DNA of 64,000 nucleotides from positions 124,001 to 188,000 of the forward strand of contig PUFA01000550.1 of NCBI GenBank assembly GCA_003508835.1, given 5' to 3'. The DNA is from Eonycteris spelaea. Taxonomy: Eukaryota; Chordata; Mammalia; Chiroptera; Pteropodidae. Shown here in pieces: positions 5,899 to 63,366 of this stretch (its first letter is position 1; each line of letters starts with the position of its first letter). The notes beneath the pieces were generated by a model, which saw nothing but the letters and a program-made list of their open reading frames with translations, ran no database searches and had not been told where the DNA came from. The translations under genes and the position numbers were made by a program.

Positions 5899-6014
5899 GG
5901 TGAAGGAGTTGTTAAAGAAATCCCTATTACCCATCACGTTAAGGAAGGATATGAGAAAGCAGACCTGCACAGTTTGAGTTGCTCAAGGTTCTTGGTCAGG
6001 GATCCTTTGGAAAG
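5899..6014 (+). CDS. RPS6KA6: RPS6KA6 exon: linker and P-loop of N-terminal kinase domain (1-base deletion)
   Basis: The acceptor AG is at 5897-5898 and the donor GTAATC starts at 6015. From 5899 in frame it reads GEGVVKEIPITHHVKEGYEKAD. At about 5964 one base is missing (GAC CTG where GAC CCT G is expected), and from 5970 the +1 frame continues QFELLKVLGQGSFGK, ending in phase 0. The GQGSFG glycine loop binds ATP. The exon is 116 bp where 117 is expected. As written, the shift puts the P-loop out of frame with the upstream part. The lost base sits in what would be a CCC run, so a homopolymer error is possible. Confidence 0.92.
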
Positions 6015-7916
6015 GTAATCAGTGCTTTTTCCCCCACATTTGTTTCTCTTCTAAACATTTAGCAAAAAAGTATACACATAGAAATCTGAAGTGTGCTATC
6101 TCGACTTGTTAAAGGGTTCACACAAAGGTAACTTTCTAATTGCATTCCTTTTACTTCTACTGTACTTTTAGTCCCATTTCTTTATACTTTTCTATAATAA
6201 TTAAGGTTTTCAATCTCCTGGACTAAATTATTTCTCTAGGACAAATAGAGCATGCTGTTTATTAGCTGCCTAAGTCAAGGTAGTTTGATTTCCGTGAAAA
6301 ATAGGGTAACCTTGTTTCCCTGCTTATATGCTAGCATGATCATAGCTTGCTCTCTCCTGGTGATTTCATCTATATTCCTTAGCTCTATCACAGAAGTCAG
6401 AATGTATGTATCAATTCATGTGTAAATGCATGAGCTCATCCATCATCTGTTAAAGCAGCATATGTGCAAACTAAAATAAGGGTAGATACTGAGTGATATA
6501 TGGATTGTGTAAAGCTACTTCCTTTCATGAAGCTTAAATTTCAAGGGAGAAAGCAAAATGGAAAAAAAAAGGATTAATTAACTGGTGCTCATTAAAATTG
6601 CTTATTAAGTGCTTAATGGCATATGATTTCTGGAAAGGAAGTATGTAGGTCTGGTTCCTGACTTTTGTACACCTAAGGCATGAACATTATTGCATATGCA
6701 CAATAAATAATGGTCTTTAAGAAAACAGCGACAACAAGAGTTTAAGGGGAGAAAGAAAAGGAGAAACTGCTCATTTCAGGGTGGCTGAGATTTAATTTCA
6801 AAGGGGGAAGGAAAGCAATTGATCAGTGATTATTTATTGTGCTCTGAACTATTTTAAAAGAAAGACATGTATTGGAATACCCCATGTGTGTACAATAGTT
6901 ATAAGAGCAATATTGGTAGCATTGGTGGAAATAAAATAGACATTAATTGTCATAAAGTAGCCCAATATCTTTGTGGTATAGATATAATGTATAAAATATA
7001 GAGAAACATCTACAGGACACAAAAAGACAAGCAAAAGTGGATTGTGGTTTAGCAGTGAATTGGTAAAGGACATGTATGAGACAAGGAGATAGGACTTGAA
7101 TAATTGTGCTGGGGAGAGTAAAACTAGGAGTTTTTAATAGATTGTGTGTTATAGAGGGGGATGTTTATAGAACTGACCTGTAGACTAGGTGTGTACATTC
7201 TGCATACCTTTATAGGTTTTTAAAAATATAATATTATTTTAGCTATTTTACATTATATTCTATGTTGTTAATTTTCATTGAACAGAGAGAAGTTCTTTCA
7301 TATCTCAAATGTATAAGTGCTTGAATATTAACTTAAATAAAATCTAACCATGTAAACATTTCAAGCATTAAAAGTAATTGTTTTGCCATGTGATGTGCAT
7401 ATTTATTCATATGTATATTTATTTATATCCAGCTTTGTTCCAGAAAACATTTAAGGCTTTTCATAGATGAAATACTAAATAAAATTTAATTAAAATAAGT
7501 AGAGATGATAGAAGCAGAAAGATTAGATCAGGGGAGGTTAGATGAAGCCAGGAATACACACTCTTTTGTTAAAAATGCATGGCATAAAGGGCCTATAAGC
7601 CTTCTAGAAGTGGGATAAAAATGAAGGTTTAAATTTTCTGGCAGCCATTATAAAGAAGTCAATACATTTAACTGTATGATTAATGACAATATCTTTAAGG
7701 TAGAAACAGATCAGACAGACCAGAGAAATTTTTCTCATGGGGCTTCATAAAGAATATAGCATACATAATGAAATAGCTTCAGTAACATCTTCACATTATA
7801 TATAGGGACATTGCTGACAAGTTGTCAATATAGTCCTTAAATTCAGGAAACACTCAGCTTTGTCTGTGTAAGAACTTTGTTTTAATAGGGATATCATAGA
7901 AGCCTTTTAAAAATTC

Positions 7917-7973
7917 CTAATACTAAAATACAAATATCTAATACTAAAATACTAATACTAAATAGAGTAGTGA
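7917..7973. repeat. Short AT-rich tandem array
   Basis: The unit CTAATACTAAAATA recurs three times with small gaps. Simple-sequence slippage is the likely origin. Confidence 0.7.
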
Positions 7974-8600
7974 TCTTTATGTAGTTCATCCACTAAAGAA
8001 ATATTAATTAAGGATATAGTTTATTTTTCCTCTAGGATGTGAACATACTTGCTTATCATTATTATATCATTTGTGTAGGCATTGTTGTGGGTGTCATTTG
8101 TTATATGCTGAACTTATTCAGGAATTTGGCCAAGGCTGTGAATCAGATAAGTGTTAAGATCAGTTCCAAGAAACTTTAGGCTGCAGCCTTATTTAAGCTT
8201 TTTTTTTTTTTTTTGGCAAAAGTTCTATTGTTAAATGCAATAAATGGAATTTTAACCTATATAAAGCCAATAGGGGAAAAACTCTGCTAAAGTCAGTTGT
8301 AAAATTGTACTTTAAAGAAACATGCATTATCATCATGAAAGATGAATATAAAATTCTGCACTAAACAAACACCAAATATGATGCTATTAATAATCATTAA
8401 TGTATGGATTGAAATGTATACCAACTTACATTATTTTAAAACACAATCAAATAGAACACATGAAAACATGTTTGAAATTGTCATATTAGCCTTCCTTGTA
8501 TTTCTCATGCCAAGTCATATTTACATAGAGAATACATTTAACATTCTTGGATTCTAATTTTTTTTTGGCTTTCATAGTAGTAAAACCTTTAACTACTGGT

Positions 8601-8679
8601 CTTAAGCATAATGTTTTTGAAAATATAAAACTCTTGTACTCTTAAACATAATGTTTTGAAAATATAAAACTCTTGTACT
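8601..8679 (+). repeat. 40-bp tandem duplication
   Basis: 8601-8640 (starting CTTAAGCATAATG) is repeated at 8641-8679 with one substitution and one missing T in a T-run. The high identity indicates a recent local duplication, or an assembly/read artefact. Confidence 0.85.
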
Positions 8680-9304
8680 CTTAAGTAATTGATTAACTGT
8701 CGAGAGCTAGCTTTAAAAAATACATGTTTACAATCTTAATATTTCTTACAGTTTGTCCTCTGTCTTCAGTCAGCATTAAAGCTGTGTGATCTTTCAGTTA
8801 TATTCAATAAACACTTATTGAGAATTTCTTAATAGAAAATATATAGTCCATATCACCAAGAGGAAAGTGTCTTGGAATTACTCACTGATATCTCTTCTGG
8901 ACAAATTCCAAGAATTGGATTAGTGACTGAAAATAAACTTTTCTGGTCAGGATAGATATGTTTTTAGATACGGTGGTTTGAAGCCATGCAGATCCTTCTG
9001 TAATTAATCATGGAGTAGAGAGCTAAGTGATATGTTTTCTTATGCTAGGAAAGTTTACCCATAAGACCTGAAAAAAAACCAAATCGGGTGATGAAACAAG
9101 TAAATAGTTACTTCTCCAGACTGTGAAAGATGGCTTCTATTAAATGTCATCTTGAGATATTAGTGAGTGCTAGATGAGCTAGGGCAAAAGTGGCTGTTTT
9201 TTTTCAAGTGTCTTCCTAAAAGGCTGGACTTTCTTTTTCCTTTACTGCCCTTATGCCCTCTATATTCCAATCTTTTAAACCTTACTAAGGGCTCTGTTCA
9301 AGAA

Positions 9305-10560
9305 CAGTTGTTCTCAAACTGTTCAACCCCCAGGCATCTGCAAGAGGCTTTCATGGTGTCTTCAAGGTCAAAACTATTTCATAATAATATTAAGGTACTA
9401 TTTGTAAAACTTCTTACAGCTTTGTACAATCAAGGCAGTAACTCCAAATGTATCAGTAGTCACTGTATTCTTCACTATTACACACTTGCAGTTTAAAAAA
9501 AAAATACAAGTTTTACTTAATGCCCTTGGTGAGGTGTTAACAAAGATTAAATTGATCAAATCTCAACCTGAGTACACTCCTTCTTAATATTGTATGATGA
9601 AATAAGGGCGCATAAAGCACTTGTGTTATTTTATGAATTGTGAGCTGAACTAGCCACTTTTTTTCATGGAACACCATTTTTACTTGAAAAAATGATTGAC
9701 AAACTGTAGTTACTTAAAATTGTGTATTTGGTAGATAATTTCTCAAAAAATGAATGGAATGAGCCTGTTATTTCATGGAAAACAATTGACTACTTTTATT
9801 AATGATAAAGTTTGAGCTTTAAAGCAAAAAAAAAAAATAGAATTGTAGAGAAGTTTTATTTGCCATTATGAGCGTGATATCTTAATTCTCAGAAGATTTT
9901 CTGATGAGATTCCTGCTGTCAACATTTACGAGATCTGCATCACTCAGTGAACCAGTATTTTTGAGATGACCAACACATGATGCTTCAAATCAGACCGGAA
10001 TACAAAATTCATTCATAATGTAAGGTCGATAAGTGGATTATTATTAATAGAATGTAGACACTTAATTGATATGGTTTCAGATTCTCCATTGCAACTAACC
10101 TTTAAGAAACTAATACTTGTCAAGTTCTTGTGTCATATCAAAGAAAAATAACTACAGTTATATGAAAAGGCTAATAAAATACTCCTCCCTTTTCCAAATA
10201 CATGTCTGTCTGATTTTTCTTTCTGTACTTAAAGCAAAACAACTTAATGACAGAGCAGATATGATAACCAACTATCTTATGTTAAGTTAGATATTAGAGA
10301 TTTGCAAAAATTTAAATCAATGCCACTTCTTTCTTTTTTGTTATTTTGGAAAATATAGTTATCTTTATAAAAATATATATGCTCACATGTAGCAGGCTTA
10401 TTTTTTAACGAATCAATAAATAGTTATTTATTTTCTGTTTTAATTTCTGATATGGTAAATATCAATAGATATAACCTATTAAAACAAAAGCACTTTGAGG
10501 TCTTCAATAATTTTTAACATCGTAAAGGAATCCTGAGACTAAAAAGATTGAGAATTGCTT
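9305..10560 (+). mobile_element. hAT-superfamily DNA transposon fossil with transposase remnants
   Basis: Imperfect terminal inverted repeats bracket the unit: CAGTTGTTCTCAAACTG at the left and, read on the other strand at the right, AAGCAATTCTCAATCTTTTT. Inside, + strand blocks resemble a Charlie/Zaphod-like transposase: GAGCTGAACTAGCCACTTTT and TTTCATGGAACACCATTTTT (EL-AAFFMEHHFYL-like), the region near 10070-10110 (MVSDS-LQLTFKK-like) and CTCCTCCCTTTTCCAA. Several internal deletions and stops leave no usable frame. It is about 1.26 kb, so much shorter than an autonomous hAT element. Target duplication is unclear. Confidence 0.75.
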
Positions 10561-10940
10561 TTCTGAAAGAGACAGATAAAGATAGTTCTACTTGTAGGAG
10601 TCATACTCACAAAATGACTCCTTTTTTGTCACCCTCCTGGTCACATGATATGGACTAGGAGAAAGGAAAGTCTTTGGTTGTTTTCATTTATTTTCCCTTG
10701 TCAGTAAAACTGAGTGAAAACTTTGAGTCTGGTTATTAGGATTAATGTCATTTGGTTTGCTTTGTAGTTCTCTGTGTGTCCTAGCAATTCATTTAATCTA
10801 CTATTTAAAAATTGTTAGGCTGCCTCTTATCAGCTATACAAATAATGTACAATTCCATTCATTTACCAACAACTAAAAACTTAAAAAACAAAACAGATGG
10901 GAAAATATGCTTCTGGACTTATAGCTTCTTGAGTTTAATC

Positions 10941-10950
10941 AATAGGTGTT
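10941..10950 (+). repeat. Left target-site duplication of HAL1-like element
   Basis: AATAGGTGTT is repeated exactly at 13381-13390, immediately after the A-rich tail of the element. Confidence 0.85.
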
Positions 10951-13380
10951 GGGGGGGGATGGTATAGATGATAGAGGCTCTGTTCATCCCCCTGGCGACC
11001 AAATCAGAAACAAGGAACAAAACAGCAAGGAAAAATCACCTGGAATTTAGAAGAACAAGCCATACAACTAGGGAGAAATCTAAGAAATCACCTAAGATGC
11101 CAGAAGGTAGGATGGGGTGAGGATGTGAGTCTGCCCTGTCTAAGCAGCTGAGACGGAGGTTGCAGTGACAGTAGCAGCGGTGGAAGCCTCTTAAAGGGGC
11201 TGTATCTGTGAGCAGATTTTCGCAGTGACGGACCTGCTCGCTCCGAGCACCAGTGCAGGTTTGGCTGCGCAGGGGGCACCAGGGACCTACAGGGAGACAC
11301 TGAGTTGTCGAAGTAAGGGCCAAAGGGAGACTTGCTCTGTAAAGAAGAGCCAATAGTATCCATTGTTCCTCTCTTGAGCCCTCCTCCATCCCAGTGTGCA
11401 GATGTAGCACCGCCATAGTGGAAACCTTATAAATTGGATAACAGAAGTTGTTCTGCACAGAAGATTCCCTGAAACTCTGCCTCCCCAACTCATGGCCCCA
11501 CCCAAGCTACATCCAGGCATATCCTCAGTGAATCAGGTGCTCCTTGCTGAGCGGCACCTAGACTTGTGCTGGGGGCAGCTGGCCTTGGTTTCTGGTGTGG
11601 CCTTTTGAAGCAACTATAGGAACAGTATCTGTGGATTGCTTGCTGAATCTTAACAGGTGGCCCCAGAGGGCACAGGCTGGGGATAAACTTGGCCTGCAGC
11701 TGAACCCTCTTGGCCACTGGACACCTACTTCAAAAATCCACACTAATAAGACCAGGAGACTTAGGAGCTTTGTTTAGTACAGAGAAACAGTCAGAAAAGG
11801 CAACCTAAAGGGGAAGACAAAGAAGAGAAACCATATGAGAGAACAGAACAGAGATCCAGAAATAATGGAGTCAAGCAGTCTAACAGATGCAGAGTTCAAA
11901 ACGCTGGTTATAAACATTCTCAATGAACTTAGTGGAAGAGTAGAAGAATTCAGAGAAAACTTTAACAAAGAGATAAAAACAAAAATGGAAATGGAAATTA
12001 TAAGAGGGAACCAATCAAGAGTGAAGGGCACATTATCTGAGATGAGTATATTAAATGGAATAAACAAAGTGAATAAAAAAGATGATCCAACAACCTATAT
12101 AGAGGATGGGGAAGCCAAAGACACTCAGTCAGAATGGCAAGAAAAAGAAAGCCAAGACTATAATAATAATTTAAGGACCCTATGGGACACAATTAAATAC
12201 ATTAAAAAAAATCCCTGTCATGGGGTACCTGAAGGAAAACAAGAAGTTGAGCTATTTGAAGAAATAATGATGTAAAACTTCTCTAACCTGGTGAAAGAAA
12301 TAGACATAAAACCCCAGGAAGTTCAGACAGTCCCAAAAAAGATGAAACTAGAGCCCCCCCACCAAGACACATCATAATTAAAATGCTACAGGTTAAATAC
12401 AAAGAGCAAATCTTAAAAGCAGCAAGAGAAATTGCAGTTAGTTCCCTCCAAGGGGGCATACATAAGACTGGCAGCTGATTTCTCAAAAGAAACTATGGAG
12501 GATATAAGGATTTGGCACAAAATAGTCAATGTGATGAAAACCAAGGATCTACAACCAGGAATACTTTATCCATCAAAGCTATTATTTAGAGTTGAAGGGC
12601 AGATAAAGAGCTTCCCAGATAAAAATAAGCTAAGGGAACTTAGACCAAGCCAGTATTACAGGAAATGTTGGAGGAACTTTTTTAAGAAGAAAAAGCGTGT
12701 ATCAAAAACGTGAATAAAGAATGATAATAACTACATTTCTATCAACAAGTACCTGAAATGGAAAAGAATTAAGTACTCCAACCAAAAGAGATAGTGGCTG
12801 AATGAATATAAAAATAAGACACTTATGCTGCCTACAAGATGCTCACTTCAGATTAAAAGAAACACAAATCAAAAGGAAGAGAATGGAATAAGACAGTGCT
12901 TTGATGGACCTAGAGAGTATTGTACTGAATGAAATGGGTCAGATAGAGAAAGAACAAATATCATGAGATTTCACATATAAGTGGAATCTAAAGAACAAAA
13001 TCAACACAACAACAAATGGAAATAAACTTATAGATACATAGAATATTTTGAGGACTACTCCATGGGAGAGGGGATCTGTAGGACTATGAAAAAGGGCAAA
13101 AGGATTAAGTACAAATGGATATTTAGAAAACAGATATGGAGATATAAAGTGCAGCATAAAGAAAATAGTAATGTTGTAATAAACATCTAAGGGGGAAGAG
13201 AGAGGGACTGCATTTAGTGGGTTGATCACTGTGAGTTATATAGATCTCTAATCACTATGTTGTACAACTGAAACAATTGTATTATTGTATGCCAAATATA
13301 ATTGAAAAAAAAATCATTGAATTGTACAATGTAAATACAAGGAGCTAATTGTCTATTATATTTCAATAAAGGTGGAAAAA
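10951..13380 (+). mobile_element. HAL1-like (half-LINE-1) retrotransposon: 5' UTR and ORF1, no ORF2 body
   Basis: It starts with a G-run typical of L1 5' ends. A GC-richer 5' UTR runs to about 11834. ORF1-like sequence follows (about 11835-12716): an N-terminal block with Lys/Glu-rich coiled-coil character, then a C-terminal block with QPGILYPSKLLFRVEGQIKS and FPDKNKLREL, typical of L1 ORF1p; a stop near 12272 splits it. About 130 bp of ORF2 start are recognisable (12720-12880), then the sequence jumps to L1 3' UTR (from about 12900) and ends in an A-rich tail. The exact 10-bp duplication shows the 2.43-kb unit integrated as such. HAL1 elements are known L1 derivatives lacking ORF2. Confidence 0.8.
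11835..12716 (+). pseudogene. L1/HAL1 ORF1p remnant (RNA-binding chaperone)
   Basis: ORF1p coats L1 RNA and aids reverse transcription. The N-terminal 146 codons from 11835 are open and rich in charged residues (coiled-coil-like, ELSGRVEEFRENFNKEIKTK). The C-terminal domain is open again from 12432. An in-frame TAA at about 12273 and frame changes between them break the protein. Full L1 ORF1p is about 330-340 residues, and the combined length here is about 290 codons. Confidence 0.75.
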
Positions 13381-13390
13381 AATAGGTGTT
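13381..13390 (+). repeat. Right target-site duplication of HAL1-like element
   Basis: AATAGGTGTT, identical to 10941-10950. Confidence 0.85.
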
Positions 13391-14379
13391 ATATGACATT
13401 TAGAACACCATGATATCTAGTTTGTGTTTGTATTCTCTTTAATCCAGGTCGATTGATATTATTTTGTGATTTTAAAACCTGATTTAGCACTTCATTTATA
13501 AGAAATTAATTTTATTTTCTAATGCTTCTATTTTATAAAGGACATTGAAGTTATACTATAGGTATAACTTCTATACTCTTTGTTCAGATGATTATCATTT
13601 TCATCAGTGAAAAATTATGGACTTTTAAGAATATCCTTTCCAAGTTTAAATCCAGTAAAAATAACTCCATGGAATGATACCACTCTGATCTTCTGTAGCA
13701 AGATACACACTTTGTCAGAGTTCTATATTATTTTGGGAAATCTTGTTGGATTTCAGGCTAGATCCTAGGCAAAAAAGTAATAGAAGGTAGCTGTTTTAAT
13801 TTGTTAGCTCTTTCAATATAGGAATGTTTATAGCAATAAAGTTTATTATTTGGTTCAACCCCTAAACTCTTTTTTTCTCCAAAGAGTTTTATGTTGCAAA
13901 AAAACAACCGTTTGTTAGTGTGTTGATTCTCTTGGTTAATCTACTCCAAGTGTGGTATGAACCGATTGGTACTAGTTCACATGAGCTGTGTTCAGAAACT
14001 GAGAGTAAGCATTTAGAAACTTCTACAGAATTTAACGGCATAATTTAATGTGTGAATCTATTAATTTAAAAGGGGATTGTATTTTGTATGACATCTAAAT
14101 TTTATTTTCCTAAATAATTCATTTTGATTATATTTTATGAAAGTATGATCTGCAGTGGGATGGAGGAAAGGGAAAAAGTACTGGTTTGTCTACACAGAAA
14201 GTGTGAGAAGCACTACTCTAGGTGAGTATGAAAATGCTAAACCTGAAGTGGTCTTTGGGTTTACACCTGAAATAAAGCCTTACTTTCAGGACAGAAGAAA
14301 GCAGAGTTTCCATGAAGTAAACATTCCCCCTCAATCCCAAGTTGGCTGATACACAATTACATGTAAAACATCTGAAATA
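13391..14379. other. Intron sequence between two L1 elements
   Basis: Appears single-copy. The 64-codon open stretch at 14155-14349 matches no family I recognise and lacks any supporting context. Confidence 0.45.
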
Positions 14380-15010
14380 GGTTCTGGTCAAGATGGCAGG
14401 GTAGGTAAAGGCTGTCTTCGCCTCCTCCCATGACTGAATTTAAAATTAACAACTAAAATTATAAAGCAGTTCAACTTGGAGAACCACTTGAATCTAGCTT
14501 GAATATTACACCTATAAAACTAAGGACATAAAGAAGAGGTCATATCTCGAGACTGGTAGGAGAGGCGGAGATGCAAAACGGGCTGGCCCACACCCGCATG
14601 TGGCAATTGAGCACCGGGTGGGATATCTCAGCTGCAGAGGGTGCCCTGAATGAGAGGGACTCCAGCCCTACATTGGAGCTCCCCAACCCAGGTTCTGCCA
14701 GGAAGAGGAGTCCCCACATATTTGGCTGTGAAAATCAGTGGGGATCCCGACCATCCAGGTGAGATGAAAGGAAACTGGAAATCCAGACGTCCCCTTAAAG
14801 GGCCCACGCTCATACTCACGTGTTCGTAGACACTCACCCTGGGCTCCAGCAGAAAGACAGCAGCTCAGGAAGCTCCAAAGACATGGCTTCAGGGCAAGGG
14901 CTTGAGGGACATCCACTGGTGTCCCTTTGTTGGGCCCTCCTTCTGTGTAGCCTACAAGTGGGCACCATCTTGCCTGTGTTCAGTCCTCCTTCCACACTGC
15001 CAATTCTGGT

Positions 15011-15560
15011 CTGCATTGGACTGGTGAGATTCATTTGCTCCATCCAGTTGACTCCCTGGGACCCTGCCCCTCCCAATTCGCAAATTACAATCTCTTTGCT
15101 CAGGACCAGCTCCACTCTGCGCTCTCAACAGGGGGCTCATTCAACAGCAATCAACAGGCCTCGGCTCTTGCACCTCTGGAGAAATTTTTGGTGGCAGGCA
15201 GCCAGCTCCTGCCTGAGCTGCAATATCTCTTGAATAAATCTCAGAGGTCTGTGGCCCAAGGCAGGAAACAGCTTACCTCTGTGTGATCTGAGACTTTTGT
15301 GAGTGGCCACAGGCTCAGCACTGATACCATATCTGAATCTGCATTGGACTCATGAAATCAGCTTACTTTACCCCAGTAACTCCCTGGGACCCCACCCCAC
15401 CCAACTCAAATTGCTGGAGGCATATTTGGCTGGGTAACAGCCCCACCCAGTCCTCTCAACCGGAGGCTCTTTCAGCAACAATCAACTGGTTGCCCACCTC
15501 TGAGACCCCATTAACTCCCTGTGACCCAGCCCACCCAACTAATGTATCACCTAAAAGCTC
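15011..15560 (+). repeat. Monomer-like tandem repeats in L1 5' UTR
   Basis: CTGCATTGGACT occurs at 15011 and 15339 (spacing 328). ACTCCCTGGGACCC occurs near 15051 and 15380, with a third diverged copy (ACTCCCTGTGACCC) near 15514. The sequence after each (CTCTCAAC..GGGGCTC-type, TTCAGCAACAATCAAC) is shared too. This looks like two and a partial third repeat of a promoter block. Confidence 0.65.
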
Positions 15561-26970: not shown

Positions 26971-27049
26971 GTTTTCTTGTTAGAAAGAAGACCGGCCCTG
27001 ATGCTGGCCAACTCTATGCAATGAAGGTGTTAAAAAAGGCTTCTTAAAG
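26971..27049 (+). CDS. RPS6KA6: RPS6KA6 exon: catalytic lysine strand (three 1-base deletions)
   Basis: The acceptor AG is at 26969-26970 and the donor GTAGAA starts at 27050. It encodes VFLV-RKKTGPDAGQLYAMKVLKKAS-LK, including the conserved AMK lysine codon at 27024-27026 that anchors ATP phosphates. Length is 79 bp where 82 is expected. One G is missing near 26979 (TTGGTT expected, TTGTTA seen), one T in TCTTTAAA near 27045, and one A just before the donor. The deletions sum to -3, so phase recovers only at the exon end; in between, the shifted frame hits a TGA at 27022-27024. All three sites are short homopolymers. Confidence 0.9.
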
Positions 27050-27689: not shown

Positions 27690-27782
<93 letters not shown>

Positions 27783-29445: not shown

Positions 29446-29528
29446 CCTTTCAGACTGAAGGGAAGCTGTATTTTAATTTTTGGATTTTCTCAAGGGGAGG
29501 AGATGTATTCACAAGATTATCCAAAGAG
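29446..29528 (+). CDS. RPS6KA6: RPS6KA6 exon: hinge region with three 1-base insertions
   Basis: The acceptor GATTAG precedes 29446 and the donor GTGAGT follows 29528. Flanking residues FQTEGKLY and RGGDVFTRLSKE are exact RSK matches. Between them the expected LILDFL hinge core is read as FNFWIFS. The cause is three single-base expansions: TTT to TTTT and TTTT to TTTTT near 29470-29481, and an extra A in CAAGGGG near 29492. The exon is 83 bp where 80 is expected. Because the insertions sum to +3 there is no stop, but the ATP-site hinge would be rewritten. Confidence 0.92.
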
Positions 29529-36401: not shown

Positions 36402-36572
36402 GGGAGCATGGATATTAATAAGTGTTACGTCTTTTTGTTGTGTGAATGATTCCCTTTATAGGGAGCATGGATATAATAAGTGTTACGTCTTTTTTTGTGT
36501 GTATGATTCCCTTTTAGGGAGCATGGATATTAAATGAAGTGTTACGTCTTTTTTCTGTGTATGATTCCCTTT
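36402..36572 (-). repeat. Three tandem 56-59-bp copies inside L1 ORF2
   Basis: GGGAGCATGGATAT recurs at 36402, 36461 and 36517, each followed by AAGTGTTACGTCTTTTT and TGATTCCCTTT. Other L1 copies have this ORF2 segment once. Copies differ by a few bases and by T-run length. Confidence 0.9.
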
Positions 36573-43195: not shown

Positions 43196-43741
43196 TCTGC
43201 CCAGGCACAAAAAGCCTAGGAATATAGTATCATTAAACTCATGTACTTTACTTTCAGAAGAGGCCTGGAGCTACTCTTTAGGTCAGAGATTGGGGTTTAG
43301 AACTATGTTTAATATGAGTTACAACTTGCTTTGGCATATTAGAAGCTTTTAGTTAGTAGAGCCATTCAAAGCAAAATACCTTAGTAGACAGTGAAAGAAA
43401 ATTGTAGAAATAGTGGAATTGCCAATGCTCAGCTGACATATCCAAAATTGTCAAAGATCCTGAGAAGAGTACTTAGAAGAGTACTGAAATTAATAATCAC
43501 ATTCTGACAGCAAGTTATTTGAAAGGATAAATTCTATGTACTACATTGTAAGAAGTGATGCAAGCTACATAATATATTTTTTGGAGATTTACATTAAAAT
43601 AGTCATATTGAAGAGAAGGATTCTTAAAGGGGTTAGTTTCATCTATCTACTCTTATTTTCTTATTTGCCTGTTTTGTGTGTTTACTAGTTTTTAGGGAAG
43701 TAATTAAAATGATCAAATGGAAAATTGTCATTTTATTTTAG
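43196..43741. other. Intron sequence before exon 43742
   Basis: No repeat or gene recognised; it ends in a T-rich tract and TTTTATTTTAG acceptor. Confidence 0.45.
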
Positions 43742-43848
43742 GTTCTATTTACAGAGGAAGATGTGAAATTTCTCCTCGCAGAACTAGCCCTTGCTTTGGA
43801 TCATCTGCACCAATTAGGATTGTGTATAGAGACTTGAAGCCAGAAAAA
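43742..43848 (+). CDS. RPS6KA6: RPS6KA6 exon: catalytic loop (YRDLKPEN), frameshifted
   Basis: The acceptor is AG at 43740-43741; the donor GTAAAA starts at 43849. It encodes [15 protein letters not shown] then [12 protein letters not shown] deleted A at about 43819 shifts the frame, so the catalytic-loop codons YRDLKPE (catalytic Asp GAC at 43831-43833) are out of frame and a TGA is met at 43835-43837. An extra A before the donor restores the 107-bp expected length. KFYLAEL reads KFLLAEL here (CTC for a Tyr codon), a change at a strongly conserved position. The previous intron is 14.2 kb, largely minus-strand L1. Confidence 0.92.
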
Positions 43849-44127
43849 GTAAAAGCTATATTCTCCTTGTGTATACCTATAGCCAATGTTATATAACTAT
43901 TTTTCTATATTGTCTTTTATTTTAAATATTATAGAAAATACGTGAATTTTAACAATTATATGAAACATAAAAAGTTAATATTCATAAGATACCCATTGAT
44001 TATAAAGTAATCATTAAATTTTTTCAGTATTGAAATAGATACACCTTATTTTATGTTTATGATTTTTGCGTGAATGTTTTATATAAATATTTTATTCCAT
44101 CTTGTGAATGTAAATTTTGATTTACAG

Positions 44128-44165
44128 CATTTTGCTTGATGAAATAGGACATATCAAGTTAACAG
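44128..44165 (+). CDS. RPS6KA6: RPS6KA6 38-bp micro-exon before DFG, intact
   Basis: The acceptor TTTACAG precedes 44128; the donor GTATGG follows 44165. It reads (N)ILLDEIGHIKLT(D), exactly the RSK4 version (EIGH rather than EEGH). The 38-bp length leaves the Asp of the DFG motif split across the junction with the exon at 54909. No change from expectation is visible. The upstream intron is only 279 bp. Confidence 0.92.
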
Positions 44166-44640
44166 GTATGGACATTTTCTTATTCTCACTAAACTTGCAT
44201 TATTTTAATTTATTTTTCTAAGCTTGTTCTCTTTTTGTTTCCTCTTTCTTGATTTATTTGCAATTTTGTTCATCTCTTTAGTAAACTAGAGTTCATTTAA
44301 AGGGTGGATGAGATAGCTTCATATATTCTAATTGCAATACTAAGAAATTATACGATAGAGTTGCTGTTCTAATTAAGAAATCAATTTGGTTTTCTAAGTA
44401 AAAACACATTATCTTAGTTTCAGTCTTGACTGAAAATTTATCATAAGTAGTTATCACATTTGGAATGCATTGATTATAAACTTTTAAACCAAGTTTTTCA
44501 CAATCACGGGTTCATTTTGTTCATTTGCAAAAAAAAAAAAAAACATATGCTTTATTTTACCCTTATTTTTTAATATTGAGGATTTACTTATAACACACTG
44601 TGCTAATCCTCACAGGATTCTTAGGCATAAAGTATTCATA
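44166..44640. other. Intron sequence after the micro-exon
   Basis: AT-rich. A 15-A run at about 44529-44543 is the only simple feature. Confidence 0.45.
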
Positions 44641-45857: not shown

Positions 45858-46022
45858 GTCTACGGCCATGCCACCCTGAGCAAGCCTGATCCGTCTGATC
45901 TCAGAACTAAGGAGGGGTTGGGCTGGGTTAGTACTTGGATGGGAGACCATCTAGAAGACCAGGTGCTGCAGGCATTAAATAAATAAATAAATAAATAATA
46001 AATAAATATAAATAAAAATAAG
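45858..46022 (+). mobile_element. 5S-rRNA-derived SINE-like copy 1 with A-rich tail
   Basis: 45858-45976 matches 5S rRNA along its whole length: GTCTACGGCCATGCCACCCT at the start, GATCTCAGAACTAAGG in the box A area, GGTTAGTACTTGGATGGGAG in box C, and GGTGCTGCAGGC at the end. It is followed by about 45 bp of (AAAT)n-like sequence. A 5S body plus A-rich tail, moderately diverged, suits a 5S-type SINE rather than a functional 5S gene. Fruit bats are known to carry such SINEs. Confidence 0.82.
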
Positions 46023-46109: not shown

Positions 46110-46240
46110 GTCTATGGCCATGCCACCATGAACATGTCTAATCTTGTCTGATCTCAGAAGCTAAGCGGGGTTAGGTCTGGTTAGTACTTGGATGGGAGAC
46201 TACCTAGGAATACCAGGTGCTGTAGGTCTTAAAAATAGAA
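46110..46240 (+). mobile_element. 5S-rRNA-derived SINE-like copy 2
   Basis: 46110-46230 (121 nt) starts GTCTATGGCCATGCCACCAT and keeps GAAGCTAAGCGGGG, GGTTAGTACTTGGATGGGAG and GGTGCTGTAGGTCTT, so internal control regions are better kept than in copy 1. A short A-rich end (CTTAAAAATAG) follows. It lies 133 bp from copy 1 in the same orientation. Confidence 0.82.
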
Positions 46241-48875: not shown

Positions 48876-48912
48876 CAACAAAACAACAACAACAACAACA
48901 ACACAACAACAT
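48876..48912 (+). repeat. (CAA)n simple repeat
   Basis: ACAACAACAACAACAACAAC-type run inside ORF2 of L1 copy D. Confidence 0.9.
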
Positions 48913-52952: not shown

Positions 52953-52954
52953 TA

Positions 52955-53859: not shown

Positions 53860-53861
53860 TA

Positions 53862-54390
53862 TGTGTTAGTCTTGGACACTGTCCTGTTCCATTTGTGTGC
53901 ATATGTCTGTCTTTCTTCAGTACTGTCTGTCTTGATTACTGTAGATTACAATAATTATCGAAGTCAGGTAGTGTTAAGTCCTTCATTTTTTTTCTTCTTT
54001 TTCAATTTTTTTTCTTTTGGCTATCCTATTTCCTTTGTCTTTTTATATAAACTTTAAATTCAGCTTGTTGATTTCTACAAAAGAAATTTTTCTGGGATTT
54101 TTATTAAAGTTTGTTGAGTCTTTAGATCAGTTTTGGGAGAACTGACATGTTTAACAACACTGAATTGTCCATACCATAAATACAGTATTCTTTGCATTTA
54201 CTTAAGATCTACTTTGATTTCTTCATTGACTTATCTAATTTTCAGCATACAGGTCTTACATGTACTTTTGTATAATTTATAACCTGTGAATTTCATGGGG
54301 GTTTTTTGGTGGTATTATAAATGCTACTTTTAAAATTTCAACTTCCAATTTTTCATTGTTAATTCATAGAAATAAGATTAATTTGTATAT
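53862..54390 (-). mobile_element. Old L1, minus strand, right half
   Basis: CTGTCTTGATTACTGTAGAT resumes antisense ORF2 after the inserted element; TGTTGAGTCTTTAGATCAGT and AGCATACAGGTCTTACATGT follow. It ends near 54390. Confidence 0.72.
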
Positions 54391-54395
54391 GTATA

Positions 54396-54482
54396 CATAT
54401 AATTGTATGTATATATATATACACACATATACATATACATATATATACATACACACACACACATATATGTAGATAGATAGAT
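54396..54482. repeat. TA/CA microsatellite
   Basis: Mixed (TA)n, (CA)n and GATA units; no coding. Confidence 0.9.
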
Positions 54483-54908
54483 ACTTTAGCTCTTTGAAGG
54501 CCTTAAACAAAAATGGAAGCCCACCAAGCCAAAGCAAAATTTGCTTTTTTAATATTTTAAAAAGTGTAAGTTACTGTCTCCTTCTTGTCTTAGTCTGTTT
54601 TAAACACTTAGATCACTAAAGACAGTTTTGATTTAATTTTTTTTGCCTCAAAATTGTTGAATGACATTCTGGTGTAGACATGAAAACATCTATTTTGGAT
54701 GAGATTTTACTGAGAAATTTTTAAATACTCTTACAGAGTATCCTGAAATACAGGCAGTTTTCCATTAATTGGTCTCACAACTTTCTTAAGAGTAATTGTA
54801 GGTCATCCATGAATAATTTTAAGGTTTAAATACATATTTTTTATTGTTGTTTTTCTATTTTTCTGAAGATCTTCAGATATATTTTTTGTGTAACATTGTT
54901 ATTAATAG
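54483..54908. other. Intron sequence before exon 54909
   Basis: No feature seen other than the exon's T-rich acceptor tract. Confidence 0.45.
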
Positions 54909-55053
54909 ATTTTGGACTCAGCAAGGATCAGTAGATCAAGAAAAGAAGGGCCTACTCATTTTGTGGTACAGTGGAGTATATGGCTCCTGAAGTAGTAAAT
55001 AGGAGAGGTCATCCTCAAGAGTGCTGATTGGTGGTCATACGGTGTAACTTATG
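54909..55053 (+). CDS. RPS6KA6: RPS6KA6 exon: DFG and activation loop, four 1-base indels
   Basis: The acceptor AATAG precedes 54909 and the donor GTAAGT follows 55053. It contains DFGLSK, then [28 protein letters not shown], and SADWWSYGV in shifting frames. The activation-loop Ser codon of SFCGT is at 54956-54958. Indels: an A lost near 54927 (TAG then appears at 54932-54934), a G gained near 54949, a G gained at 55019 and an A gained near 55047. Length is 145 bp where 143 is expected. GHSQ reads GHPQ. Without the indels the motif order is exactly that of an RSK N-terminal kinase. Confidence 0.92.
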
Positions 55054-55408
55054 GTAAGTAGTGTTATTTTTTAAAATTATGTCAATAATAAAATTAGTAA
55101 TTTAGAATTTTAATTTAAATTTGAGGAGTGTCCATGTGAGAATAGGGTACTAATAATTCATGATTATCATTAAAATGTGTTTTGGCTAGCTGTTATAACA
55201 ATGTAATTAGAGTTTGCTGTTTGATTTCTTTTAAACGTTTACTAGATGAAAAGGTAAATGGCAGCATTCTTTTAAACTATTCAAGTTTAAAACTTAGACC
55301 TGAAACCATAAATTCCCAGAAAAAATCGTAGGAAGTAAACTCTTTGACATTGGTCTTAGCAGTATTTTCTTAGACGTGTCTTTTCAAGCGAGGGCAAGAA
55401 AAGCAAAA

Positions 55409-55439
<31 letters not shown>

Positions 55440-55443
55440 GTGC
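55409..55443. repeat. (CA)n(CG)n tract in L1 ORF2
   Basis: Ten or so CA units followed by about eight CG units and TGCG; alternating purine-pyrimidine throughout. Confidence 0.95.
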
Positions 55444-56039
55444 GTAACTATATCGAACTCAAAAGCTTTTGCACACCAAAGAAACCATCAAAAAAAAAAA
55501 AGACCATGTACTGAATGGAGAGAAGATATTTGCAAATGATATATCTAATAAGGGGTTAATATCTAAAATATAAAAGAACTGAGTAGACATTTCTTCAAAG
55601 AAGATATACAGATGTCAAACAGACATGTGTAGATATTCTCAACATCACTAATCATCAGAGAAGTGAAAATCAAAACCACAATGAGATATCACTTCACTCA
55701 CACCTGTCAGAATGGCTATTATCAAAAATTAAACAAATAAGTGTTGGCAAGGATGTGAAGAAAAGGGAACTCTTCTGCACTGTTAATGGGATTTTAAACT
55801 TATAGCCACTATGAAAAAACAATGTGGAAGTTCCTCAGAAAATTAAAAAATAGAGCTACCATACTGCCCAGCAACTTTATTTCTGGGCATTTACCTGAAA
55901 AAAAAAATGAAAACATTAATTCGAAAAGATATATAAACCTCTTTGTTCATTGTAGTATTATTTACAATAGCCAAAATATGAAGCAAGCAACTTAGGTGTT
56001 AATGATAGGTGAATGAATAAAGATGATATGGGGTATATA

Positions 56040-56095
56040 TACAATGTACATACACACATACATACATATACACACATACACACACATATAAAATA
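56040..56095. repeat. ACATAC/CA microsatellite in L1 3' UTR
   Basis: Repeated ACATAC and CACACA units inside copy G. Confidence 0.9.
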
Positions 56096-56544
56096 CTCAG
56101 CCATAAATAAGAATTAAATTTCGCCATTCGCAACAACATGGATAGATCTAAAGGGTATTATGCTAAGTGAAATGTCAGAAGAAAATTTTGAGTGATTTTA
56201 TTTTTTGTGGAATCTAAAAACAAACAACAAAAAATAAACAATCTCATAGATAACAGAACAAACTGATGGTTGCCAGATGGGAGGTTGGTCGGGGGATGGG
56301 TGAAAAAGATGAAAGGGATTAAGAGATACAAACTCCACCTATGAAAATAAATAAGTTCCGAATGTGTTACATACACCATAGGGAATATAGTCAATAATAT
56401 CATAATAAATTTGTACTGTGACAGAGGTTACCATACTTATGATAGTCACTTTGTAAGGTATATAAATGTTGAATCATTGTATTACACTCATGAAACTAAT
56501 ATAACATTGTATATCAATTATATTTTAATAAAAATTAGAAATAC

Positions 56545-57129
56545 TCTGTTTAGCCATCATATGGTATTTTTAATTGGTTGTCACAGAATTTAGCACCTTA
56601 AAACATATATTGTCCTTATTGTCAACTGTTTTAAGCATGTGCCTAGAAAGATTATTAAAACCTCTTTACATGAGCAATCATGTCTTATACTGTTTTATCT
56701 CCCATAGTACCTAACATAGTGGGCATATGGACTGACTAATTTGGTGTAAGATCAAGCATAAAACCTGTAGTATTAAGTAGAATAATAAGTAATAAAGCTG
56801 TTGAATTAGATAGTTTTCTTTTGAAGCTTGATAATCCATTTTCCTAGTTCTTATTGAATGTCACACAATATGACACATCAGTATATTAATGCTTACTATA
56901 AGTTTGACATTTGGGGAGGGCAGTGAAGCGGAACAGACTAGAATTACAATATTTTGCATTTCCCATGACCTAAAAAGGCATATAATCTGGTTGTGGAAAC
57001 AATTGGAATAGCTAAATAAACTGTCCCTGGAAGTACCTTAGGAATCCACCGCTAGAAAGTCATATAGTTGTAGGAAAGTGGAGGAGGTAGAACTTAAATT
57101 AGCACTTGAAAAATTGACAAAATTAAATA
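56545..57129. other. Intron sequence between two L1 copies
   Basis: No recognisable feature. Confidence 0.45.
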
Positions 57130-60100
57130 GCTGCATGTCAAGAAGAAAAAAAAAAGAATTAAAAAAAATCAGGATAGTTTAAGGGACCTCTGGAACAATA
57201 TGAAGCATAACAATCTTATCCAGACCATAGGATAAGAGAGAGAGCAAGGGATTGATACTCTATTTGAAGAAATAATGACAGCAAACTTCCTAACCTGGTA
57301 AAGGAATTAGACATGTGAGTTCAGGAAGCAAGTGTCCCAAATGAGGAATTCAAACGATGCACACCAAGACACACTATAATTAAAATGGCAAAGGTCAAGA
57401 CAAAGAGAGAATCTTAACAACAGCAGAGAAGCTAGTTTACTTACAAGGGCATCCCCATAAGAATGTCTGCTGATTTTTCAATGGAAACTTTTTAGTCCAG
57501 AGGGAACTAACAAGAAATATTCAAAGTTATGAAAAACAAGAAACTACAACCACAAATATTCTACCAGCAAGCTTTTGATTAAAATGGAAGAATGAGATAA
57601 AAGAGCTTCCCACACGAGATAAAGTTTAAGGAATTCATCACCAATGAGCTAGTATTACAAAAAATGTAAAAGGGATTTTATGTAAAAAGAGATAGGGTAA
57701 AAAAAGAAAATAGAAAAATAACAAATACGGATAATATAAATGGCAGTAACTATGTACCTATAGTAATCACTTTTAATGGAAATGGATTAATTTCTCCAAT
57801 CAAAGACATAGTGTTGCCAAATGGATTAATGGATAATGGATAATGCATATGCTGTCACAAGAGACCCACTTCAGATCAGATGACACTCACAGACTGAAGT
57901 AAAAGAGTGGAAAAAGATATTTCTTGCAAATGGAATAAAAATATTAGAATAAAATGGACTTTAAAAGAAAAAGTCTAATAAAAAAAAAAAAGGTATTACA
58001 TAATGATAAAGGCTCAATAAATCAAGAGAACCTAACCCTAGTAAGCATATGCACAACCAACATAGCGAGAACCTACATACATAAAGCAATTATCAAACTG
58101 ACATAAAGGAGCGATCAACAATAATACACCCTAGTAGGAGACTTTAACACCTGTTGACACCAGTGGACAGATCTTCCGGGGAAAGAATCAATGGGCCTAA
58201 AAGACACACTGGACTATATGGATTTAATAGATATTTTTTAGAGCATTTTACCTCAAAGCAGCAATATATGCATTCTTTCTCAAGTGCACCATGACATTTT
58301 CCAGGATAGACCACATATTAGGACACAACAAGTCTCAATACAATTTAAGAAGATTGAAATCATCACAATCATCTTTTTGATCACAATGGTATGAAACTAG
58401 AAAATCAACTACAAAAAAAAAATTGGAAAATACACAAACACAGGGAGGCTAAGTAACATGCTACTAAACAATGAATGGGCTACTAATGAGATCAAGGAAG
58501 AAATCAAAAGATACCTAGAGGCAATGAAAAATGAAAAATACAATGACTCAAAATCTATAGGACACAACAAAAGCAGTCCTAAGAGGACAATTCATAGCAA
58601 TACAAGCCTACCTCAGAAAGAGAAAAAGCTCAAATAATCTAACCTTACACTTAAAAGAACTAGAAAAAGACAGCAAACAAAGCACAGAGTGAATAGAAGA
58701 AGGAAATAATAAAGATCAGAGCAGAAATAAATGATTAGAGTCTAGAAAAACAAATACAAAATAAGGCAAATGAAACCAAGAGCTGGTTATTTGAAAAGAT
58801 AAACAAAGTTGACAGACCCTTATCCAGACTCACAAAGGTAAATAGGAAAAGGACTCAAAAAATAAAACAAAAATGAAAGGAGAAAAATAACACAGACTCC
58901 ACAGAAATACAAAGGATCATAAGAAAATACTACGAGCAATTATATGTCAACAAATTGACAATGAAGAAAAGGACACATTCCTAGAAACATGCAATCTCCC
59001 ATGACTGAGTCAAGAAAAAAACAGAAAATCTGAACGAACCAATTACCACCAATGAAATTGAATCAGTAATCAAAAACCTCCCAACACAACACAAAAGTCC
59101 TGAACCAGATGGCTTTCAAGGCAAATTTTACAAACATTCAAATAAGAATTAACACCTATTTTGCAAACTATTCCAAAAAATTCAAAGAGGGAAGGCTCCT
59201 TAACTCCTTTATGAGCCCACCATTACTTGATTTCAAAACCAAAGACATTACAAAAAAAAGAAACTATACCACTGATACTCTTATGAAATATTGATGCAAA
59301 AATCCTCAACAAAATATTAGCAAACTGAAATTCAGCAATACATTAAATTCAGCATAACATATCAATTGGATTTATTCTTGGGATGCAAGGTTGGTACAAT
59401 ATCTGCAAATCAGTGTGATACACCAATTAAACAAATTGAAAGATAAAAAGCATATGATCATATCAATTGATGCAAGAAAAAGCATTTCACAAAATCCACA
59501 TCCATTTTATGGTAAAAACTCTCAGCAAAGTGGAATAGATGGAACATGTCTCAACATAATAAAGTCGCTATATATGACAAACCTACAGCTGACATCATAC
59601 TCAATGGGAAAGGGCTAAAAGTATTTTTCCTTAAGATCAGGAACAATACAAGGATGCCCACTTCCCCCACTCCTCTTCAACACTGTATTGGTGCCTTTGT
59701 CACAGCAGTAAGGCAAGAAAAATAAAAGGTTTCCAGATTGGAAAGGAAAATTTAAAACTCTTGTTATTTGCAGATGACATGATACTGTATGTAGAGAACC
59801 GTTAAAGATTCCACCAAAAAACTTAGAACTGATCAATGAATTCAGCAAAGTATCAGGTTACAAAATAAATGTTCAGAAGTTAGTGGCATTTTTACACAAA
59901 TGATGAACTTTCAGAAAGACAAATTAAGAAGACAATCCTATTCACAACTGCATTTAAAACTAACCAAGGAGATAAAAGACCTGTTCTCAGAAAATTATAA
60001 GCCATTGAAAAAAGAAATTGGAGAAGGTATAAATAAATGGAAGGATATACCACGCTCATGGGTAGGAAGAATCAACATCATTAAAATGGCCTTACTACCC

Positions 60101-61790
60101 AAAGCAATCTATAGATTCAATGAAATCCCTACCAAAATACCAATGGCAATTTCAGAGAGCTAGAACAAATAATCCTAAAATTCATATGGAACCATAAAAG
60201 ACCCTAAATAGCCACGGCAATCTTGAGAAAGAAGAACAAAGTTGGAGGTATCACTCTACCTGATATCAAACTATACTTACAAGGCTACAGCAATCAAAAC
60301 AGCATGGTACTGGCATAAAAGCAGATATATTGTTCAATAGAACAGAAAGAGATCCCAGAAATAAATCCATGCTTATATGCTCACTTAATATACGACTAAG
60401 GAAACAAGACTATACAGTGTGGTAAAGAAAGTCTCTTGAATAAATGGTGCTGGAAAAATTGGACAGATACATGCAAAAGAAAAAGAAAAAGAAACTGGAC
60501 CACCTTATACCATGTACAAGAATAGACTCAAAATGGATTAAAAACTTAAATGTAAGACCCGAAACCATAAAACTTCTAGAAGAAAACATAGGCAGTAAAT
60601 CTCTGATATTACTAACAGTAATTTCTTTTTTGGATTTACCTCCCCAGGCAAGGGAAACAAAAGAAAAAAAAGTAAACAAATGGAACTACATCAAACTAAA
60701 AATTTTTCGTACAGCAAAGGAAACCATCAACATAACAAAAAGAATGGTCTGATTGGGAGACGATATTCAGTAATGATACATCTGATAAGAAGTTAATATC
60801 CAAAAATGTATGAAAAACTCATACAGCTCAACAACAAAAAAAACAAAACCCAATTAAAAAATGGGCAGAATTCCTGGACAGGCACTTCTCCAAACAGGAA
60901 ATAAAAGTGGCCAATAGACATATGGAAAGATGCTCAAGGTCACTAATCATCATAGAAATGCAATGAAATGTCACCTGACACCAGTCAGAATGGCTATCAT
61001 CAATAAATCAAAGAACAAGTGTTGGCGAAGATGCAGAGAAAAGGGAACCCTCATACATTTTTGGTGGTGTTGCAAATTGCTTCAGCTGCTATGGAAAACG
61101 GTTGGAGGTTTCTCAAAAAATTAAAACTGGATGTACCTTTTGTTTTGACACAGCAATTGCATTTCTGAGTGCTTATCCAAAGAAAACTAAAATATATATT
61201 TCATAAAGATCTATGCGCCCTTTTGTTCATGGAGCACAATTTACAATAGTCAAGATATAGAAGCAACCTAAATGCCCATCAACAGACAATCAGATAAAGA
61301 AATTACGGTTCGTATATACAATGGAATATGAAAAAATGAAAACTCAGCTATGAAAAAAATGAAATCCTACCATTTGCAAAGACATAGATGGATAGATGGA
61401 CCTAGAGGTTATACTGAGTGGAATAAGTCAGACAGAGAAAGATAAATACCATTTGATTTCACTTATATGTGGAATCTAAGGAACAAAAAGAAACTAATCG
61501 AAGAACAGACTCACTTATATAGTGGACAATTTGGTGACAGAGGGGAGGGGGATTTTGGGGTCTGGGAGAATAGGTGAAGGGTTAAAAAGTAGAAATTAGT
61601 AGTTGATAGATGGTCGCAGAGATGGTGAGCATGACATAGGGAATGTAGTTAGCATTAATATCTTAGCAAGGTGGAAAACCAAGGAGAGAAGGAGCAATTA
61701 GGGGGTCATTTTATAACTATATAAATGTCTAACCAATGTACTATACCAGAAACTAGTTAAAATAAATAAATTAATTTAAAAATAAAACTT
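57130..61790 (+). mobile_element. 5'-truncated L1 (copy F): ORF1 end, ORF2, 3' UTR
   Basis: ORF1 C-terminal text at about 57170-57670 (ATTTGAAGAAATAATGACAG; ATGTCTGCTGATTTTTCAAT), ORF2 endonuclease from about 57730, reverse transcriptase with the FADD block (TTGCAGATGACATGATACTG at 59768-59787), ORF2 C-terminus near 60950-61290 and a 3' UTR ending TAACCAATGTACTATACCAG with an A-rich tail. Colinear, 4.66 kb. The longest readable ORF2 pieces are 87 codons (59900-60163) and 102 codons (60444-60752). Multiple frameshifts. Confidence 0.88.
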
Positions 61791-61794
61791 AGCC

Positions 61795-62593
61795 AAAAAA
61801 CATAAGGTTTATTTGTAGGAGAGGTGTGATTCCAACATACTGTTCTCTTTTACTTTTTGTCCTTGATATTCCCATCTCTACTCTCCCAGTCTCCAGTTGA
61901 GAACTATCACTGTAGATTTGAGAGGGAAAACAGGCTTCAGAGAAATTGGGGCTGGATCAGATTGAGAGTCTTCAAGGTATAGGAGAGAGTTGAATGGATT
62001 AGCTACTAAGATTGTGAGTTCAGATAAATGAGCAAGATGACTGAGGCCAAAGCCATTATTGAATCTTAGTTTGTTTTAAATATTAGGGATATAAAGACTT
62101 TTTATTGAACTATAATGGTTTGTTTTTGACTTATTTTTAATACCATCAATTAATGTTCTAGTTATCTTCATTGCAGTTAAATCTCTTAAGGAAAATATTT
62201 TTCTTATGCTGCGTACAACTGTCTCATTTATTTTCTTTTTAAAGATACTAAATTCCATATATAAGCAAAACCGTACAGTAAAAAAAAAAAAAAGATATTG
62301 GTGTATGTGTATGTTGCTTTTGTTTTTTTGGTTCATATTTAGGGGAATGAGGAGAATGAGAGTGGTTAAATCTTTCTTGATCGTATATGAATTCGAAATG
62401 ATACTGAGCTTATTTTTACTTCCTTTTATGATTAAATTGGTTTAAAAGCATACCTTTGTTTTAAACGAAAATGACTTATATCTATTTCCAAATTACTTTA
62501 GTTTGACAGGACTGAAAAAATTGGTTGGTTTCATTTGCTACAAGTCACCTATCAGCTGCATATAGTGGGGTACCAGAAATTTATTCATTAAGT
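61795..62593. other. Intron sequence
   Basis: Single-copy-looking. A 15-A run at about 62281-62295. No gene seen. Confidence 0.45.
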
Positions 62594-62814
62594 CAGCAGT
62601 CCTCAACCTTTTTGGCATCAGGGACTGGTGCTCCTGTGAGATCTAATGCCTGATGATCTGGTAGAACTGAGGCAGTGATGCTAGCACTGGGGAGTGCTGC
62701 AAATACAGATGAAATTTTGCTCGCTCCCTTGCCACTCACCTTTTACTGCGCAGCCTAGTTCCTAACAGGCCCCAGACAGGTACTGGTCCACACCCCAGGG
62801 GTCAGAGACCCCTG
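62594..62814. mobile_element. Small hAT non-autonomous DNA transposon
   Basis: The left end CAGCAGTCCTCAACC and the right end on the opposite strand CAGGGGTCTCTGACC are terminal inverted repeats. Flanking CATTAAGT (62586-62593) and CCTTAAGT (62815-62822) form an 8-bp target duplication with one mismatch, the hAT length. Internal GATCTAATGCCTGATGATCT and CCTAACAGGCCCCAGACAGG match a widespread mammalian Charlie-type family. 158 bp before the exon at 62973. Confidence 0.82.
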
Positions 62815-62972
62815 CCTTAAGTGACCTAGTCTTCTGATCCTATTTTGACCTACTGTCATGTAGATCCAAATGATTTGATGATCATATATTGCAAATCTCA
62901 ATTTTTTTTCCTAAAGAATTTCATTGTGTATTCTAAGTTGTGCTAAATTGTGTTTTCTTTTATTTGTTTTAG

Positions 62973-63040
62973 TTTGAAATGCTTACTGGTACTCTACCAT
63001 TTCAAGGTAAAGACAGAAAGACCATGAATATGATATTAAA
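62973..63040 (+). CDS. RPS6KA6: RPS6KA6 exon: alpha-F/G region, one codon shorter
   Basis: The acceptor TTTTAG precedes 62973; the donor GTAATG follows 63040. It reads FEMLTGTLPFQGKDR-KTMNMILK, where the RSK4 family sequence I recall has KDRNETMNMIL. The exon is 68 bp where 71 is expected, a 3-base in-frame loss that replaces NE by K. There is no stop. This could be a natural variant, since the loop is variable among RSKs, or part of the same indel pattern as the other exons. Confidence 0.9.
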
Positions 63041-63277
63041 GTAATGTAAACACTATTTTTTTCTTTTGGAAAAGATTTCTGGCTTTTAGTTTTGAGAAAC
63101 TTGTTATAGGTTTAAATTAACATAAAGAACATTTTTCACACTGCCTTGTTTTCTTCTCCTACCAAATGGGAGACATTATTTGCCATTGTGAAAGCATTAT
63201 TTAAAATTCTATTTGAGATTTTAAGTTTAGAAGTATGGCTAGATTGAAATTAATTTTCTAAAATCCATTTTTTCCAG

Positions 63278-63366
63278 AGCTAAACTTGGAATGCCTCAGT
63301 TTCTTAGTGCCGAAGCACAAAATCTTCTAAGGATGTTATTCAAAAGGAATCCAACAAATAGATTGG
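63278..63366 (+). CDS. RPS6KA6: RPS6KA6 exon: C-lobe of N-terminal kinase domain, intact
   Basis: The acceptor TTTCCAG precedes 63278; the donor GTATTG follows 63366. It is 89 bp, the expected length, and reads [20 protein letters not shown] then [10 protein letters not shown] with no break. Two residues differ from recalled human RSK4 (QSLL to QNLL, NPAN to NPTN), both plausible natural substitutions. The intron before it is only 237 bp. The gene continues beyond the window. Confidence 0.92.

Follow-up and report, generated by a model that had tools for sequence, protein, structure and literature searches.

The gene RPS6KA6, which encodes the kinase RSK4, lies with nine of its exons in a 64,000-nucleotide stretch of fruit-bat DNA (hereafter the window; C540:124001-188000, on a contig of 205,352 bases in an assembly of 1,962,903,590 bases and 3,802 contigs), and in this assembly its reading frame is closed. 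We are confident, on the evidence of the sequence, that this broken look reflects errors that remain in the consensus of a poorly polished contig, the underlying gene being functional; most likely the bat's own genome does not contain the frameshifts, and the gene is normal. We would be looking at a single, probably functional fruit-bat RPS6KA6 (RSK4) through a 205-kb contig with a poorly polished consensus, in which long-read consensus error would account for one spurious gain or loss of a base in roughly every 60 coding bases of the window. The poor consensus may stem from read support that is low or uneven on C540, and reads would be expected to restore the frame. Residues and splice sites would remain visible through the noise because selection kept the real gene intact.

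Exons were placed by tblastn, using as query the N-terminal 392 residues of human RSK4 (100% identical to a database entry), and each was read by a frameshift-aware alignment, its ends being set by splice site and phase and its expected length counted by hand. The nine exons are as follows, with observed and expected lengths:

5899..6014, + strand: RPS6KA6 exon, residues 48-86; 116 bp, 117 expected; one base lost near 5962-5966.
26971..27049, + strand: RPS6KA6 exon VFLVRKK...SLK; 79 bp, 82 expected; one base lost at each of three places, namely the exon start, 27042-27046 and the border to the exon that follows (length/phase count for the outer two).
27697..27777, + strand: RPS6KA6 exon RDRVRTK...KLHY; 81 bp, 81 expected; no indel; V118A.
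29446..29528, + strand: RPS6KA6 exon FQTEGKLY...LSKE; 83 bp, 80 expected; three one-base gains within 29469-29493.
43742..43848, + strand: RPS6KA6 exon VLFTEED...LKPE; 107 bp, 107 expected; loss near 43817, gain near 43844-43848 (the gain by length/phase count); Y178L.
44128..44165, + strand: RPS6KA6 exon ILLDEIGHIKLT; 38 bp, 38 expected; no indel.
54909..55053, + strand: RPS6KA6 exon FGLSKESV...SYGVLM; 145 bp, 143 expected; loss near 54926, gains near 54946-54951, 55016-55020 and 55045-55048 (the last by length/phase count); S251P.
62973..63040, + strand: RPS6KA6 exon FEMLTGTL...MNMIL; 68 bp, 71 expected; 3-base loss near 63014-63021.
63278..63366, + strand: RPS6KA6 exon AKLGMPQF...NRL; 89 bp, 89 expected; no indel; S302N, A313T.

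Together they sum to 806 bp against 808 expected, in agreement with an earlier note on this DNA, made from the sequence alone, which had counted nine RPS6KA6 exons and some 810 bp. In the alignment, the RPS6KA1 exon homologous to 5899..6014, on contig C6, is one base longer. The gene in the window is predicted to be the RPS6KA6 (RSK4) orthologue, closer to RSK4 than to RSK1-3: a read-through of the exons, with X at broken codons, finds its best PDB match in 6g76, RPS6KA6 (E 1e-162), ahead of RPS6KA3 (5e-150) and RPS6KA1 (8e-146), and the RPS6KA1 and RPS6KA2-like genes of the assembly sit on contigs other than C540. On C540 itself RPS6KA6 has its first exon at 96918 and extends to at least 202697, no exon being matched from there to the end of the contig.

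Thirteen one-base events (7 gains, 6 losses) and one 3-base loss were found in the nine exons, the numbers that the earlier note had given approximately. Nine of the 13 were called by the frameshift-aware alignment (5962, 27042, 29469, 29476, 29489, 43817, 54926, 54946 and 55016), and four by length/phase count, namely the losses at the start of 26971-27049 and at its 3' junction and the gains at the end of 43742-43848 and near 55045. The alignment gave 15 frame events, of which 29441, 29443, 44165, 62949 and 62971 were left out, as they fall at the end of an exon or within intronic tails of the alignments; the 3-base loss, placed at 63018, may also be read as two or three separate events. The stops noted previously at 27022, 43835 and 54932 are present (frame 2), with more in any single-frame spliced reading, and the AG/GT splice dinucleotides are indeed canonical at all 18 positions. 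To the latter claim we add that canonical dinucleotides do not imply a phase kept at every junction, because the junction between the second and third exons has lost one base. As also claimed before, the events lie mostly at homopolymers, 12 of the 13 touching a run of at least 2 identical bases against 51% of exon bases (hand count; P = 0.002), but this test is weak because duplication of a base itself creates a run. The spread of the 13 events among exons is not significantly uneven (P = 0.21), and their rate is 1.6% (95% interval 0.9-2.8%).

Against this number of indels, the number of residue changes is small. At 14 indels, and with an indel:substitution ratio of 0.33-0.1, neutral decay is expected to bring 42-140 substitutions, 31-102 of them amino-acid-changing, whereas six residues outside broken codons differ from Rousettus, which matches the estimate of about six made earlier; the probability of six or fewer under neutral decay is 5e-8 (ratio 0.33) to 7e-36 (ratio 0.1). 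The comparison covers amino-acid changes only. In human polymorphism data, 3,850 indels stand against 70,102 single-nucleotide polymorphisms, a ratio of 0.055, with 46% of the indels one base long (PMC2808225). The substitution load is thus out of line with the indel load, contrary to what a unitary pseudogene should present, and decay alone would not produce so indel-rich and substitution-poor a pattern, as the earlier note had argued from the excessive share of indels.

Comparison with a related bat, a check which that note had named, can be made with Rousettus aegyptiacus, whose RPS6KA6 protein (P0215) is annotated in full frame, whereas the gene in the window is broken by 13 one-base events. 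Exon order is the same as in RPS6KA6 of Rousettus and other mammals, and so are the splice phases apart from the noise. Five residues outside broken codons differ from both human and Rousettus (V118A, Y178L, S251P, S302N and A313T); the sixth difference from the annotated Rousettus protein is F170, which is shared with human and is L in Rousettus, while G48 is shared with Rousettus and is D in human. Against human, 249 of 254 readable residues are equal, and 15 of the 20 mismatches over 269 positions are X. Among 225 fetched proteins, that of Rousettus aegyptiacus is the sole one sharing GEGVVKE, in the window, and GKADSC, SWDQEME, GGVACSG and STSADCI, in exons outside it; the stretch NTHQLF is present in Rousettus and two others of the 225.

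The rest of the same gene and its paralogs in the same assembly provide a further comparison. Further exons of RPS6KA6 on C540 show about 11 one-base shifts in 11 exon stretches (373 residues, alignment tails included), a count which omits the first exon's length difference of two codons, Rousettus being shorter there too, and in which one exon reaches masked letters. In RPS6KA1, on the 24.0-Mb contig C6, 2 one-base shifts were read in about 1,281 bp (some 427 codons, summed by hand; short or unmatched exons, masked stretches and five of seven frame events, in intron tails, left out), and a presumably RPS6KA2-like gene on the 7.9-Mb contig C80 has none in about 201 bp (about 67 codons). Event density on C540 is hence above that of conserved paralog exons elsewhere in the assembly: 13 events in 806 bp stand against 2 in about 1,482 bp (Fisher one-sided P = 5.8e-5; control density about one twelfth), and with alignment-called events only, 9 are set against 2 over these same lengths (P = 0.002; about one eighth). 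The two RPS6KA1 shifts lie within C6:14395000-14404999, one clear, at EYMA/PEVV, and one probable, at DSPG/PPSAG. They are probably assembly error too, and suggest that large contigs are not free of stray one-base errors either.

When the full assembly was searched at the DNA level with window segments 62973-63366, 43400-44300 and 5600-6400, there was no second copy of RPS6KA6, C540 alone matching at 100%, and no intact parent copy of a duplicated pseudogene for these three stretches. The search with 5600-6400 also returned two paralog exons, on C6 and C80, at 74% identity; since these were detected, a recent second copy should have shown up, although the expected paralog RPS6KA3 was not returned and the DNA search is therefore incomplete at that divergence.

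As for the kind of error, 41 runs of 9-16 A or T occur in the window and run counts fall smoothly (no reference genome being compared). Nanopore-type homopolymer collapse was considered as the main pattern and rejected, as gains about equal losses and long A/T runs persist. Balanced gains and losses together with surviving long runs suit the consensus error of PacBio continuous long reads (CLR) more than nanopore homopolymer shortening, and PacBio CLR consensus error would accordingly be the better fit here. The published Eonycteris spelaea draft (Espe.v1) is described as PacBio only and Quiver-polished at about 80x, with 1,966,861,576 bp in 4,470 contigs (PMC6177735), and we infer that the assembly used here is the PacBio-only Eonycteris spelaea draft. 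A further fruit-bat draft, that of PMC7403528, was left aside.

Non-coding sequence was assessed by aligning repeat copies within the window (49 pairs of at least 150 columns, the pairs not being independent). One-base gaps make up 838 of 1,504 gaps (56%), compared with 46% in human data (PMC2808225), which corresponds to about 0.5-1% one-base error per copy in a by-eye reading against simulated pairs that varies with the natural rate assumed. When one-base gaps were regressed on divergence, the intercept was high (0.026 per base); substitutions in such pairs would be inflated by differences among L1 subfamilies, and in simulation blastn undercounted gaps at high error. Across the 24 five-kilobase bins listed, rates of one-base gaps were 0.010-0.026 per aligned base. 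Against a near-equal partner, the L1 at 33.0-36.3 kb showed 92 one-base gaps in 3,080 and that at 21.1-24.2 kb 57 in 2,995 (P = 0.009), while gaps of at least 3 bases numbered 30 and 38, respectively (P = 0.33), the pair having been chosen after the table was seen; this contrast hints at patchy error. As a window-wide error meter, repeat self-alignment is soft evidence only.

Several observations weigh against attributing the frameshifts to error. Of the 13 events, four come from counting by hand, and the like-for-like control is the weaker one (P = 0.002). The control genes were scored by alignment only, the length/phase count having been applied to the window alone, and one of the two control shifts is no more than probable. 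Among repeats, gaps of at least 3 bases also have an intercept and no slope, being as flat against divergence as one-base gaps, and the test had no control contig, 20 kb of the 21.7-Mb contig C10 yielding a single 158-bp match to C540. At an error of 0.5-0.95%, at least 13 exon events have P = 0.0003-0.05, and the exons therefore seem more error-prone than repeats are on average. Should the draft be Espe.v1, polishing by Quiver at about 80x means that C540 must be an exception (PMC6177735). Finally, three of the five residue changes fall at near-invariant columns (Y178 in 219 of 219 matched sequences, V118 in 193 of 200 and S302 in 183 of 190, paralogs included); such changes fit substitution error and relaxed constraint equally well.

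That RPS6KA6 has truly been lost in this fruit bat, as a unitary pseudogene too recent to have gathered many substitutions, we regard as very unlikely. Loss would account for the frameshifts in five of the nine window exons, with the 3-base loss in a sixth and more shifts in exons outside the window, for some of the changes at near-invariant columns and for the lack of an intact copy of the searched stretches elsewhere in the assembly. Much cleaner paralog exons on other contigs are equally expected under it, so error and true loss are separated by the indel/substitution imbalance, and not by the paralog control alone. Here, however, indels are about twice as many as amino-acid changes, where neutral decay gives many substitutions per indel; the splice dinucleotides are kept throughout, Rousettus has its annotated full-frame protein, and loss requires an indel-biased process of which no other sign was seen. 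A real loss of RSK4 in a fruit-bat lineage through a burst of small indels almost without substitutions, for which unusual indel-biased mutation at the locus would be needed, is extremely improbable. Among six papers listed for RPS6KA6 together with pseudogenes or bats, the Y chromosome or gametologs, or gene loss in mammals, none concerns loss of the gene, judged by titles and abstract openings.

We give next to no credence to the idea that C540 holds a recently duplicated and inactivated copy, or a Y-linked relative, of an RPS6KA6 that is intact at another place in the genome. In its favour, C540 measures just 205 kb where other contigs reach 24 Mb, but the three-stretch searches of the 1.96-Gb assembly gave no high-identity match outside C540 (a copy that has diverged strongly, or one absent from the assembly, may have escaped them), and duplication would leave the indel/substitution imbalance unexplained. 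The young inactivated copy, the second choice of the earlier note, has lost ground because no parent copy was found. A mixture, in which a functional gene with assembly error also bears one or two real species-specific changes such as the 3-base loss at 63014-63021, is compatible with the explanation that we prefer, yet in itself unlikely: the loss preserves the frame and so differs in kind from the one-base events, but it is also readable as two or three small errors, and the site is conserved, the lost pair reading N-E in 149 of 223 matched sequences and K-E in 73. Residual consensus error, the leading explanation from the outset, has circumstantial support from the indel/substitution imbalance, the cleaner paralog exons, the further shifts on C540, the full-frame Rousettus protein and the lack of a second copy.

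Other elements of the window agree with a fruit-bat origin. Two 5S-rRNA-like copies lie in the same orientation 252 bp apart (45858-45974 and 46110-46228), as would be expected of fruit-bat MEG short interspersed elements (SINEs); the 5S-derived MEG SINEs are described as the only known active SINEs in megabats (PMC7547651). That the L1 copies are diverged is in keeping with reports that L1 is no longer active in Pteropodidae (PMC4072516). Also in the window are a tRNA-Val(TAC)-like sequence at 1336-1411, upstream of the first window exon, which may be a tRNA-derived SINE and not a true tRNA gene, and a 58-bp unit repeated about three times in tandem at 36402-36572.

Kinase sequences were also met elsewhere. 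In a PF00069 search of the assembly, 142 of 1,575 candidates were scored, and most of the 142, spread over many contigs, are kinase domains without introns that share the same score and lie in open frames some 513 residues long. Ten such loci were fetched, on contigs of 33.5-36 kb (for example C1734, C1778 and C1786), nine of them identical over a 735-base core; on C1734 and C2996 there are two copies per contig, about 11.7 kb apart. From their sequence these copies look like an amplified kinase macrosatellite, perhaps akin to MARK or sperm-motility kinases. A 74-kb contig of a viral collection (IMGVR_UViG_3300026430_000073) encodes a distant kinase, the one match to a piece of RSK4 in a scan of viral contigs, with 51% identity to RSK4 in its best segment (query residues 7-148 matched); it was not used as evidence.

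Overall, the case would be an ordinary artefact that carries a caution, since anyone screening this draft for gene losses would score the fruit-bat RPS6KA6 as lost. Even in the absence of reads, the indel to amino-acid change ratio, together with a control of paralog exons taken from that assembly, favours artefact over decay. With mammalian unitary pseudogenes, as generally known, the locus shares frameshifts and stops at an intron-bearing gene and the absence of a second copy from the searches, but it has far too few substitutions for its indels and has kept all its splice dinucleotides. With the falsely pseudogenised genes described from long-read assemblies (Kastor, PMC12007338; Homopolish, PMC8011154) it shares one-base gains and losses, mostly at homopolymers, in conserved coding sequence, and it differs from them in being on a mammalian contig, with gains as frequent as losses and with long runs present.

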